A stretch of DNA of 64,000 nt from Trichococcus pasteurii. Lineage in GTDB: Bacteria; Bacillota; Bacilli; Lactobacillales; Aerococcaceae. Where the stretch lies: NCBI RefSeq assembly GCF_900112935.1, contig NZ_FONM01000005.1, forward strand, positions 1 to 64,000, given 5' to 3'. Below are positions 30,530 to 47,205 of this stretch, one piece after another. Within the stretch, counting starts at the first letter, position 1. Every line of letters begins with the position of its first letter. The translations under genes and the position numbers were made by a program. Below the pieces are notes generated by a model. The model saw nothing but the letters and a program-made list of their open reading frames with translations, did no database searches and was not told where the DNA came from.

Positions 30530-31960
30530 ATGAATTATGAAACAGTCATCGGACTGGAAGTCCATGTGGAATTGAAAACTGAATCAAAAATGTTCTCCCC
30601 ATCTCCAGCACACTTTGGGGCAGAACCGAACACAAACACAAACGTCATCGACTGGGGCTACCCAGGCGTCTTGCCGGTCATCAACAAAGGCGCAGTCGAA
30701 TTCTGCATGAAGGCCGCTTTGGCTTTGAACTGCGAAATCTCGACAGAAACGCATTTTGACCGCAAAAACTACTTCTACCCGGACAATCCGAAAGCATACC
30801 AAATTTCGCAATTGGATAACCCGATCGGCCATGACGGCTGGGTTGAAATCGAAGTGGAAGGCGTCAAGAAAAAGATCCGCATCGAGCGCGTCCATCTTGA
30901 AGAAGATGCCGGCAAAAACATGCACGGATCGGACGGCTATTCCTATGTCGATTTGAACCGTCAAGGAACGCCATTGATCGAAATCGTATCGGAAGCGGAT
31001 ATGCGCTCTCCGGAAGAGGCTTATGCCTATCTGGATGCCGTACGCCAAATCATCATGTACACAGACGTATCCGATGTGAAGATGGAAGAAGGCTCCATGC
31101 GTTGCGATGCCAACATTTCCATCCGTCCATTCGGCCAAGAAAAATTCGGTACGAAGACGGAATTGAAGAACCTGAACTCCTTCAACTTCGTCCGCAGAGG
31201 TTTGGCTCATGAAGAAAAACGCCAAGCACAAGTATTGAATGCTGGCGGCGTCATCCAACAAGAAACACGCCGTTTCGATGAAACAACCGGCGAAACGATC
31301 CTGATGCGTGTCAAGGAAGGCGAAAGTGATTACCGCTACTTCCCGGAACCGGATCTGCCAGGGTTGACCATTTCCCAAGAATGGATCGACCGCGTAAAAG
31401 CATCCATCCCAGAAATGCCTGCAAAACGCCGTCAAAGATACATTTCTGAATACGATCTGCCTGAGTACGATGCAATGGTATTGACACTTTCGAAAGAAAT
31501 GTCCGACTTCTTCGAAGGCACCATCGCTGCCGGCGCCGATGCCAAATTGGCTTCCAACTGGTTGATGGGCGAAGTTTCCGCCTACCTGAACAGCGAAAAA
31601 GTGGAACTGGCCGACACGAAACTGACGCCAGCTAACCTTGCCGGCATGATCACGTTGATCGAAGACGGCACCATCAGCACGAAGATCGCCAAGAAAGTCT
31701 TCCGCCTGTTGGCAACAAAAGGCGGCGACGCCAAAGCAGTCGTTGAATCAGAAGGCCTGATCCAAATGAGCGATCCATCGCAACTATTGCCGATCATCAA
31801 CGCCGTTTTGGACAACAGCCAACAATCCGTTGACGACTTCAAAGCCGGAAAAGACCGCGCCAAAGGCTTCCTCGTAGGCCAAATCATGAAACAAACCAAA
31901 GGCCAAGCCAACCCAGGCATGGTCAACCAACTACTCGCGCAGGAGTTAGAAAAAAGATAG
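30530..31960 (+). CDS. gatB: Asp-tRNA(Asn)/Glu-tRNA(Gln) amidotransferase subunit B
   Basis: 476 residues of usual length. The N-terminal kinase-like domain ([45 protein letters not shown]) carries the metal and ATP sites. A C-terminal helical YqeY-like domain ([41 protein letters not shown]) binds the tRNA. Ribosome binding site AGGAGG. It is the last gene of gatCAB; no strong terminator follows at once, but several hairpins do. Confidence 0.97.
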
Positions 31961-32160
31961 AGCGAGATGAATCCCGCTCTAGGAATCGAGCACTAAGAGG
32001 ATATTACGAGAACGGCCGCTTTTTGGACGTGACGTAATGTCAGCTTAGGCACTCAAACGTCACAGTGCGACGTTTGAGGTCTTTGGCAATCTTTGTACCA
32101 AGAGAATTGATGCTCATTATTCTCGGGATTCAGAACGCGTTTGCGTTTGAACACATTCCA
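31961..32160 (+). other. Structured gap downstream of gatB
   Basis: No gene. It contains AGAGCG/CGCTCT just after the stop, a perfect 10-bp hairpin CTCAAACGTC/GACGTTTGAG at 32052-32078, and GAGAAT..ATTCTC at about 32101-32124. It leads to the terminator at 32160. This could be a long 3' UTR or a small RNA. Confidence 0.4.
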
Positions 32161-32191
32161 GCCAACTTCCTTCCGGAGGTTGGCTTTTTTT
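32160..32191 (+). terminator. Intrinsic terminator downstream of gatCAB
   Basis: GCCAACTTCC pairs with GGAGGTTGGC (one wobble) around TTCC, followed by seven or more Ts. Confidence 0.85.
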
Positions 32192-32194
32192 CAC

Positions 32195-32385
32195 TCACAA
32201 TCAAAATGAAGCTCGCCGGGAAATAGGCAAGAAATATGCTTCGAATTCCCGGCGAGACAGCGTTCACCGATAAATCAACAAGAAAAATGCCCAGTATTCC
32301 CGATGAGGCCATCCTCACCGGGAAATCGACATGCAAAATACCCGCAATTCCCGATGAAGCCAGTCTCGCCGGGAATTCGATCCTT
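32195..32385. repeat. 51-bp tandem repeat array (locus 1), four hairpin units
   Basis: The motif CTCGCCGGGAA-like right arm recurs at 32212, 32263, 32314 and 32365, exactly 51 bases apart. Each full unit has a left arm ATTCCCGRYGA, so TTCCCGATGAGG / CCTCACCGGGAA forms an inverted repeat (11 of 12 pairs in the third unit). The spacer has AAAAATGCCC. It is open in several frames because 51 is 17 codons, but I treat it as non-coding. Related arrays occur at 34190 and 47083. Confidence 0.75.
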
Positions 32386-32614
32386 TGTATCTGCTTAATT
32401 TTCTGCGAAAAGTTCCCGGTTCTGTGCAAAACACAATATAGGCTTTTTTCTGAATAAATTAACTCTCAAAAAAACTGCAACAAAGCTATCTATTTCCAGT
32501 TCAGCAATTAGTATTATTATGATTTTGGTGATATAATCATTAATTGAGTGGTTTGATAAGAAAAGATAAATTGTGACCCATATAACAGATGAGCCTAGAA
32601 AGATGAGGAAAAGA

Positions 32615-33646
32615 ATGAGAGCAAGAGTAATTTACAATCCTACTTCCGGAAGAGAAATGCTGAAAAAAAGCATGATTGACATCCTTCAAATATTGGAAGA
32701 AGCAGGCTATGAGGCCAGTGCTTATGCCACGACACCCGAACCACTTTCCGCAACAAAAGAAGCAGAACGTGCCGCTTTGGCCGGTTTTGATCTGATCGTT
32801 GCAGCAGGCGGAGACGGTACCGTAAACGAAGTCATCAACGGCATCGCCGGTTTGGACCACAGACCAACAGTCGGCATCATACCTGCGGGGACCACAAATG
32901 ACTATGCCCGTGCTTTGAAGATTCCACGCTCAAATCTATTGGATGCAGCCCGCGTCATCGCTGACGGAAATGTCATCCCGATGGACATCGGTCAATCAAA
33001 TGATACTTATTTCATTAACATCGCAGCAGGCGGCTATCTGACGGATCTGACCTATGACGTCCCGGCAAAACTCAAGACCATTTTCGGCTACCTTGCCTAT
33101 TTGGTGAAAGGCGCCGAAAAAATCCCACAACTCAAACCGATGCATATGCGTATCGAATATGAGGGCGGCGTTTACGACGGTATGGCATCCATGTTCTTCG
33201 TGGCCTTGACCAATTCAGTCGGCGGCTTTGAAACGATCGATCCGAATATCGTTTTGGGAGACGGCAAGTTCACGCTATTTGTCGTGAAGACAGCGAATAT
33301 CTTCGAAATCCTGCAACTGTTGGCCCAAGTGTTGAACGGGGGCAGACATCTGGAAAATTCGAATGTCCTTTACACACATACCAGCTTTGTGAAGGCAGAA
33401 TCCATGGACGGGTCCCGCTTGATGATCAACTTGGATGGTGAATACGGCGGTGATGCACCGACTTTGTTCACGAACCACCAGCAACACATCAAAATCATCG
33501 GCAATACATCCGATTACGCTGATCCGATCGAAAAAGTAGATGAAGACATTCTTGAAGGTGCCGGTACTGGCTTCATGAAGGAAGTTGAAACCTTGCACCC
33601 GGATGAAGTGAACGACAAACGTTTGCCTTACGATGGCAAGAATTAA
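32615..33646 (+). CDS. dgkB: Diacylglycerol kinase DgkB
   Basis: 343 residues from the ATG at 32615 (GAGGA upstream); a GTG at 32573 and an ATG at 32603 are in frame but have poorer sites. It starts MRARVIYNPTSGREM and has the lipid-kinase glycine motif AAGGDGTVNEVINGIAG and GIIPAGTTNDYARAL, as in B. subtilis DgkB. It phosphorylates diacylglycerol left over from lipoteichoic acid synthesis so the lipid can be recycled. That links it to the ltaS gene at the left end. It keeps the ancestral position near gatCAB. Confidence 0.93.
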   Translation: MRARVIYNPTSGREMLKKSMIDILQILEEAGYEASAYATTPEPLSATKEAERAALAGFDLIVAAGGDGTVNEVINGIAGLDHRPTVGIIPAGTTNDYARALKIPRSNLLDAARVIADGNVIPMDIGQSNDTYFINIAAGGYLTDLTYDVPAKLKTIFGYLAYLVKGAEKIPQLKPMHMRIEYEGGVYDGMASMFFVALTNSVGGFETIDPNIVLGDGKFTLFVVKTANIFEILQLLAQVLNGGRHLENSNVLYTHTSFVKAESMDGSRLMINLDGEYGGDAPTLFTNHQQHIKIIGNTSDYADPIEKVDEDILEGAGTGFMKEVETLHPDEVNDKRLPYDGKN

Positions 33647-33677: not shown

Positions 33678-33725
33678 AATGCCCGGCCTCTCGGTGTTAT
33701 GATGAGAGGTATCGGGCATTTTTTG
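33678..33725 (+). terminator. Intrinsic terminator of dgkB
   Basis: AATGCCCG / CGGGCATT with inner CTCTC/GAGAG, followed by a T-run. An AAGAATTAAGAATTAA micro-repeat lies just before it. Confidence 0.8.
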
Positions 33726-33770: not shown

Positions 33771-34181
33771 ATGCCGAGAAAACAGAAGAAATTTTTGTCC
33801 TTATTATTTTTGAGCGGACTGCTGATGCTGCTCATGGCCTGCGGAAAAGAGGCGAATTCACCAATTGTGGCCATCGCAAATGAGACGGAATACGAAGAAG
33901 TGGTCGCGAAGGATGTGGCCTACCTCTATTTCGGCTACGATGATTGCCCCTACTGCAAGGAATTCCGTCCAATCCTGGAAGAGGAATTGGCGGAAACAGG
34001 GCAGACCGCTTATTACTACAATACGAAAAAGCGCGTCAACGATGCCAACTACAACGAAGTGCTGGATACCTACGACGTCGCGTTCGTGCCCGTCCTGATC
34101 AGACTGGAGGATGGCAAAGCAGTCGGGTCGGTCAATCTGGACACCGTTGCGGACCTGCCGGCATTATTGGCGGAAGAATAG
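33771..34181 (+). CDS. Thioredoxin-fold lipoprotein with CPYC motif
   Basis: 136 residues from the ATG at 33771. The signal LSLLFLSGLLMLLMACGK ends in lipobox LMAC. A thioredoxin-like domain follows with YLYFGYDDCPYCKEF (CxxC near residue 61) and the cis-Pro region AFVPVLIRLEDGK. It is probably an extracytoplasmic thiol-disulfide reductase or bacteriocin-accessory-like protein; the redox partner is not in view. It stands between dgkB and an array of 52-bp repeats, interrupting the usual dgkB-rlmCD neighbourhood. Confidence 0.85.
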   Translation: MPRKQKKFLSLLFLSGLLMLLMACGKEANSPIVAIANETEYEEVVAKDVAYLYFGYDDCPYCKEFRPILEEELAETGQTAYYYNTKKRVNDANYNEVLDTYDVAFVPVLIRLEDGKAVGSVNLDTVADLPALLAEE

Positions 34182-34189
34182 CAGGCGAA

Positions 34190-34390
34190 ATGTCCGGGGT
34201 TGTCCGATAACCACAAAGAATCGGACAACCAAGAAGCATGAATGCCCTAGGATGTCCAATAACTATGAAGAATCAGACAACTGAGAAGCAAAAATGCCCG
34301 AGAATGTCCGATAACGGCAAAGAATCGGGCACCCGGCAAGCGATTCAGCCAGGTCTTGTCCGATAATCGCAAAGAATGGGCTGCCCCCAA
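34190..34390. repeat. 52-bp tandem repeat array (locus 2), four hairpin units
   Basis: The core TGTCCRATAA starts at 34201, 34253, 34305 and 34357, exactly 52 bases apart. Each unit contains the inverted repeat GTTGTCCGAT / ATCGGACAAC (perfect in the first unit) around an 11-base loop. The spacer AAGCAAAAATGCCCGAG shares AAAAATGCCC with the array at 32195. It lies between a plus-strand lipoprotein gene and the end of a minus-strand VOC gene. Non-coding, since a 52-bp period breaks any frame. Confidence 0.8.
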
Positions 34391-34409
34391 CCGGAGCAGC
34401 CCATTCGTA

Positions 34410-47043: not shown

Positions 47044-47079
47044 GACTGCGGGCGGGGCCAAATTGTTTAATGTTCCTCA

Positions 47080-47205
47080 GTTATTCGACAATCTCGGTCT
47101 GGCAAGATGTCGAATTGTCAAAAGTTTCATGACATTCGACAATCTCGGCTCAAACTGGTGTCAAATTGTCGGATCTACCTCACGTATTCGATAATTTTTG
47201 GCACC
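47080..47205. repeat. 51-52 bp tandem repeat (locus 3), two to three hairpin units
   Basis: ATTCGA recurs at 47083, 47134 and 47186, at 51 and 52 bases. The paired arms TTCGACAAT and ATTGTC recur together, with ATTGTC at 47114 and 47165. The inter-unit segment ATTGTCGGAT resembles the TTGTCCGAT arm of the array at 34190. It lies between the pflB terminator and the next operon. No gene otherwise in 46938-47353. Confidence 0.65.

Follow-up and report, generated by a model that had tools for sequence, protein, structure and literature searches.

The window, a 64,000 nt stretch of a 3.2 Mb Trichococcus genome (G000), includes gatC, gatA, and gatB, all scoring above the NCBIfam cut-offs. Behind them, starting a few bases beyond the gatCAB terminator and ahead of a diacylglycerol kinase gene, is a tandem array of palindromes (F1; Table 1) with a period of exactly 51 bp. 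Both its location downstream of gatCAB and the exact spacing of four right arms (at 32212, 32263, 32314, and 32365) had been proposed in an earlier sequence-only reading and are borne out. The same reading saw a palindrome in every unit, which holds in part: three units have both arms, the first of these with a damaged right arm, and the unit at 32212 is a right arm only. Changes in one arm, said to be often matched in the other, are not so in this array: those in the right arm of palindrome 1 and in the inner pairs of palindromes 2 and 3 are unmatched. Two further arrays that had been placed at 34190 and 47083 are real, the former with units of 52 bp (F2) and the latter with units of 51 and 52 bp (F3).

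Table 1. Features of the window at and around its palindrome arrays.
Feature	Position	Strand	Basis or remark
gatB, gene upstream of the F1 array	30530-31960	+	NCBIfam
gatCAB intrinsic terminator	32160-32192	+	T-run forms the left border of the block variably present between species
Block of ~250 bp containing the whole F1 array	32193-32450	none	Flanked on both sides by GGCTTTTTT(T)C
F1 array, unit 51 bp	32202-32400	none	Approximate extent by lag scan (32210-32392 in another scan)
Lone right arm CTCGCCGGGAA, first, incomplete F1 unit	32212-32222	none	Read from sequence
F1 palindrome 1, damaged right arm	32246-32273	none	Direct reading; weak model match 32244-32275, E 1.2e-5
F1 palindrome 2	32297-32324	none	Fold -16.2 kcal/mol, z -3.97 for 32292-32330
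F1 palindrome 3 (right arm at 32365)	32348-32375	none	Fold z -2.21 for 32343-32385
Diacylglycerol kinase family gene, downstream of the F1 array	32573-33646	+	
F2 array, unit 52 bp	34178-34382	none	Palindromes 34200-34228, 34252-34280, 34304-34332, last at 34356
F3 array, TTCGACAAT.. arms, units 51 and 52 bp	47050-47204	none	Lag scan

The block that holds the F1 array is not a constant feature of the gatCAB site: in an alignment of 11 Trichococcus genomes (G010 excluded) it is present in 6 and absent in 5. Its presence is scattered across a poorly resolved dgkB tree, so that gain and loss look alike, and deletion between the two GGCTTTTTT(T)C copies explains its origin as well as insertion does. 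At the F2 place, at least a partial unit is kept in all nine relatives for which both flanks were found (11 searched). The last F2 unit (34356-34406) enters the stem of the downstream terminator, an arm of which takes the place of the unit's own right arm; this fusion is seen in the window and also in all nine of those relatives.

The gatCAB array is a member of a wider class of palindrome arrays, and not a single element. In the Trichococcus DNA sampled, the intergenic arrays with 50-52 bp units represent at least seven families of palindrome: F1, with arms TTCCCGGYGA..TCACCGGGAA and a 28 bp palindrome; F2, with arms TTGTCSGAT..ATCSGACAA, a 29 bp palindrome, and a 23 bp spacer; F3 (TTCGACAAT); F4, with arms CCCGCCAAA..TTTGGCGGG; F5 (AAAGATGAAT); F6 (GTCGACTGTT); and F7 (CTCCGGCGAG). 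Seventeen listed arrays fall into nine clusters when the similarity cut-off is one at which F5 and F6 are split. These cluster lists were drawn at typical periods; a count of periods among non-coding palindromic arrays, given below, is less selected. A covariance model of F2, searched with the stricter filters that were applied above 40 genomes, has matches in 12 of 13 Trichococcus genomes and in none of 47 others. The exception within the genus is T. palustris (G010), without a match to this model; elsewhere it matches 126 times in G006, some of these being the opposite strand of one unit, and 35 times in G009. The F1 model gives 35 matches in G000, 51 in G006, and 50 in G001, with one palindrome often matched on both of its strands. 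Viral contigs contain no exact match to the one degenerate F2 pattern searched.

Arrays with other palindromes are found in three other genera of the bacterial family, in units of 51-52 bp, of 40-41 bp (and 31 bp), or of 41-43 bp. In one of these genomes (G022), 15 listed arrays form 11 clusters, with a resemblance by eye between at least two of them; two of its loci carry four and three arrays in succession (L274:11485-12219 and L275:606-1230), mostly of different palindromes, with units of 40-41 bp. The idea that other genera lack such arrays is rejected: it is true only of 89 short loci (545,675 bases), which contain no array at 49-53 bp and one CRISPR-like array at 61 bp, and is overturned by the larger samples of G022, G023, and G045. 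Single 20-kb stretches of G024, G019, and G020 contain no non-coding array. In the open-licence literature, which leaves out most subscription journals, we found neither a paper on Trichococcus tandem repeats nor a description of its palindrome arrays.

The length of the units is more uniform than their sequence. That different arms recur at the same length and in the same layout was part of the earlier reading and proves correct: several unrelated palindromes occur, and each genome keeps to one typical unit length. When 694,645 bases of the window's own genome were scanned for lags, ten of the 33 resulting rows fell at 50-52 (four from two stretches chosen for F1 matches, and two from the window), as against one row over all lags from 30 to 150 in one order-3 Markov copy of the sample. 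In 20 stretches chosen for F2, 39 of 45 lag matches are at 52 and four at 51. Among non-coding palindromic arrays, those at 51-52 bp make up seven of nine in an evenly spread sample of G006, all six in 200 kb of G023, and two of three in 590,645 bases of the window's own genome, where two more at 52 failed the palindrome test or counted as coding. In four 100-kb orthologous regions, where array places are shared between genomes, seven of nine palindromic arrays are at 50-52 bp, and an eighth, at 103, is at about twice the unit. Nine of ten non-coding palindromic arrays in 200 kb of G022 are at 31 or 40-41 bp, and those in 140 kb of G045, as read by eye, are at 41, 42, and 43 bp, with lags of 23, 24, and 45 also present. 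By pattern search the step between neighboring F2 units is 52 bp in 155 of 155 cases; F2 units of 51 bp and other lengths do exist (L128:16299, L134:12793, and several model matches). Unrelated palindromes at nearly equal repeat length hint at a measuring or spacing rule.

What a family mainly keeps is its arm sequence: arms vary less than either the loop or the spacer. In 28 F2 arrays (187 units), letters in the minority within their own array make up 2.3% of arm, 10.3% of loop, and 9.6% of spacer positions, a spacer-to-arm ratio of 4.1 (bootstrap 3.1-5.7). Aligned by register alone, F2 units differ from the best unit at 5.4% of arm, 17.5% of loop, and 29.5% of spacer positions (186 units, 40 arrays), and F1 units at 10.6, 32.0, and 38.9% (16 units, 7 arrays); the spacer excess in these figures is inflated by flanks behind the last units, and the loop is the fairer control. 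An arm identity of 95% among 42 F2 units is likewise inflated, because the search pattern fixes 11 of the 18 arm letters. Such conservation could come from recent spread instead of selection. The spacer core that the F1 and F2 arrays of the window had been thought to share is there, but is no family feature: AAAAATGCCC occurs once in each array (at 32283 and 34290), with a third copy in a terminator at 33714, three copies where 0.32 are expected and a number that none of 100 shuffles reaches, while the resemblance of seven F1 spacers to 42 F2 spacers is no greater than that of shuffled ones (P 0.20-0.95). As a family trait, the shared spacer is therefore put down to chance.

Unit number changes at fixed places, by whole units. 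Two genomes with flanks 99% alike have seven and three units at the same place; elsewhere, five units correspond to one palindrome in a second genome, and two further genomes have an empty site. Of 35 F2 arrays, 31 have a 5′ flank unlike the spacer (of its last 15 positions, fewer than 11 alike) and 29 a 3′ flank unlike it (fewer than 18 of 23 positions), so that most arrays begin and end with a palindrome, the first spacer bases aside. Target-site duplication was considered as a source of the spacer and rejected, since just four of 35 arrays have a 5′ flank whose last 15 nt agree with the spacer at 11 positions or more. Protein coding by the F2 array was rejected too: its unit is 52 bp, which is not divisible by three, and the reading frame shifts from unit to unit.

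Nor are the arrays found in all kinds of gap. Sixty were found in the context set, of which four have no assigned gap; the remaining 56 are in tandem (32) or convergent (24) gaps and none is in a divergent one, as against 118 divergent among 514 gaps of at least 150 bp. Genes were called here by a simple ORF rule, an earlier version of which had divergent ORFs on either side of one array that lay within a called ORF; places in this sample are shared between genomes, and 20 of its stretches were chosen for holding F2. Sixteen arrays in assigned gaps of G022 and G023 likewise include no divergent case. A terminator-like T-run is found within -10 to 45 nt of the array edge in 32 of the 56 arrays, compared to 11.3% (sd 4.2) of placed intervals.

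At the RNA level, the repeats could be 3′ untranslated hairpins that stop, insulate, or stabilize transcripts. Several of the palindromes do fold stably (those at 34251-34281 and 32255-32305 do not), and palindromes work on both strands, as would suit convergent genes. Compensatory changes point the same way: pairing survives 18 of 22 double changes within 57 arrays, and 19 of 26 in a register-based count. There is thus some sign of a demand on pairing, doubly changed pairs staying paired more often than not. Against this, 201 of 281 changed cells within arrays break their pair, and the register-based count includes 95 one-sided breaks. Covariation of the arms across relatives does occur but is rare: cells changed on both sides and still paired number six of 270 in 27 distinct F1 units from the model search, three of them in one weak match and two in L162, and three of 378 F2 cells, in two pairs, are changed on both sides between units. 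The two inner F1 pairs are broken in 10 and 16 of the 27 units. None of ten pairs is doubly changed in 17 F1 units found by pattern, which left only two pairs free on both sides, and a swapped C-G pair is seen in 12 of 150 F2 pattern units. The proposal that structure rather than sequence is selected draws little support within families, where doubly changed pairs are rare; what different families have in common is layout and length alone. Many arrays, moreover, sit beyond the terminator of the upstream gene, and the window has no Rfam match at the gathering score. All told, a role as RNA hairpins seems improbable to us.

One F1 array, in G012 (L162:2539-2672), has matched changes in the outer arms of two of its three palindromes (TTACCGG..CCGGTAA and ATACCCGG..CCGGGTAT), a clear case of compensation. 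The one sub-threshold Rfam match, to Qrr (E 0.31, 20.3 of 50 bits, 32087-32193), is outside the F1 array.

Between the gatB stop and the terminator is a different repeat, a dispersed hairpin element (core 31988-32050, longer match 31958-32146). Its core is 63-67 nt and full copies are ~130 nt; 20 distinct cores were found, 16 of them with full flanks. In 12 cores counted, 12 of 20 pairs are doubly changed, in 45 cells compared to 16.2 in shuffles. Its model matches all 13 Trichococcus genomes (7-34 matches each) and two of 47 others, with one weak match each, and it too has no Rfam match at the gathering score. The evidence for conserved structure is much better for this element than for the F1 array.

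The sequence-only reading knew of no named element with this form. Named relatives in kind do exist, in STAR and REP/BIME repeats, though the arrays belong fully to neither. STAR elements of staphylococci are intergenic direct tandem repeats with spacers that are homogeneous at each locus and distinct between loci, and the Trichococcus arrays share this layout of a tandem motif and locus-specific, locally homogeneous spacers between genes. Also alike are a motif number that varies between strains, precise presence or absence at a site, and units of about 50 nt (PMC3532100). The STAR unit, of 54-58 bp, consists of a 14-bp motif, T(G/A/T)TGTTG(G/T)GGCCC(C/A), and a 40-44-bp spacer, and no function or mode of spread is described for it (PMC3532100). 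There the likeness ends: STAR has one motif and spacers of 40-44 bp, where the Trichococcus arrays have several unrelated palindromes (PMC3532100). None of 306 loci matches the STAR motif TNTGTTGNGGCCC.

REP/BIME sequences are short palindromes of extragenic DNA, present in many copies and lying 3′ of genes, in gaps of the tandem and convergent kinds; some are clustered (PMC3733652, PMC2817692). F2 (29 bp) and F1 (28 bp) fall within their range of 20-40 bp for a many-copy extragenic palindrome, but their consensus sequences lack the GTAG or CGTC tag, and in 30 Y1 transposase loci no Y1 gene is flanked by inverted copies of either. The direct orientation and nearly strict unit length of the Trichococcus arrays are further differences. 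Like CRISPR, the arrays have a palindromic repeat, a spacer of fixed length, and, in most cases, a repeat at either end; unlike CRISPR, their spacers are near-copies within an array (minority fraction 9.6%, 28 arrays), and units of 40-52 bp are short.

In a second account, the arrays are selfish REP-like repeats of no use to the host, which a Y1 transposase (IS200/RAYT-like) or another transposase would move as palindrome-spacer-palindrome units and which are simply purged from promoter regions. Dispersal, presence or absence at orthologous places, and the confinement of F2 to the genus would all follow, as would the location 3′ of genes, which is also the one described for REPs (PMC3733652). 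Y1_Tnp matches are found in 12 of 13 Trichococcus genomes, and three distinct array-bearing loci are among the 30 Y1 loci examined (47 matches listed): an F1 array at ~0.8 kb from a Y1 gene (L162/L171), an F3-like array at ~0.3 kb (L164), and an F6-like array at >1 kb (L160). The same 30 loci contain no F2 match, however, and F1 at one distinct place only, where it does not flank the gene. G009 lacks Y1 matches yet has its 35 F2 matches, and G010, conversely, has no F2 but six Y1 matches. With dnaA as origin, 19 of 35 F2 places in G006 are in the replication sense, so that F2 strand is independent of replication and an early impression of a bias has gone. With models run for F1 and F2 only, there is no clear link of the arrays to Y1 transposases, and we consider this account unlikely, if still a serious one. 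None of the 35 F2 places in G006 (grouped from matches) is in the 712 kb opposite dnaA (2.552 Mb through 0 to 0.339 Mb), about the expected terminus. An F1 place at 0.113 Mb lies inside this stretch, so F1 does not share the gap; in G001, F1 is found at 771 kb, near the expected terminus.

A mutational origin was also weighed: hairpin-templated slippage and quasi-palindrome correction might make and maintain palindromic repeats without selection. This would account for the many unrelated palindromes, the whole-unit changes, and some of the paired changes, but it would let palindromes drift, both arms together, and the F2 arms are alike across the genus. It predicts neither one unit length per genome nor a bias toward terminators and away from promoters, and is very unlikely.

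What we tentatively prefer, at somewhat less than an even chance, is that these are non-autonomous STAR/REP-like arrays, with putative DNA sites read by a sequence-specific factor and forming multi-site targets at the ends of transcription units. Each array has the form [palindrome-spacer]n-palindrome, non-coding and non-autonomous, in a gap between transcription units, and a genome holds several unrelated palindromes, nearly all at one unit length (50-52 bp in Trichococcus). The palindromes are kept, and the spacers drift almost without change of length and are homogenized within the array. Each palindrome would be a pair of DNA half-sites for a putative factor, one per family; the unit length could hold successive sites near the same helix face (51.5 bp being about five turns), and the array would thereby present a multi-site target. 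Unit number would shift by slippage or unequal recombination. The position of many arrays behind terminators, and so outside transcribed RNA, the conserved arms with loose inner pairs, and the near-fixed spacing make DNA protein sites a better fit than RNA hairpins; the best reading is that any action the arrays may have is exerted as DNA, at the boundaries of transcription units. Helical phasing, which this reading assumes, has against it that units of 41-43 bp in G045 and of 54-58 bp in STAR are not clean multiples of the helical repeat.

A more general possibility is a genome-specific “ruler,” by which tandem units are made or kept at one length whatever the palindrome, mostly near whole turns of DNA: ~51.5 bp in Trichococcus and G023, ~41 and 31 bp in G022, and 41-43 bp in G045. 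The progression 31, 41, 51.5 bp is suggestive of increments of whole helical turns, although the 43 bp of G045 fits poorly, and we regard such a ruler as rather doubtful. Behind it might stand machinery that, regardless of sequence, duplicates hairpins a fixed distance apart, or else a protein that packs DNA and depends on phased palindromes; either, if real, would be a system of a new kind. In practice, the arrays are likely to be variable-number markers for Trichococcus strains, and probably also false positives of CRISPR finders; STAR-like repeats are known from the literature to be miscalled as CRISPR (PMC5294841). The same layout with unrelated palindromes, at a length that seems to be that of the genome, turns a vague question about function into a testable one: what sets the length?
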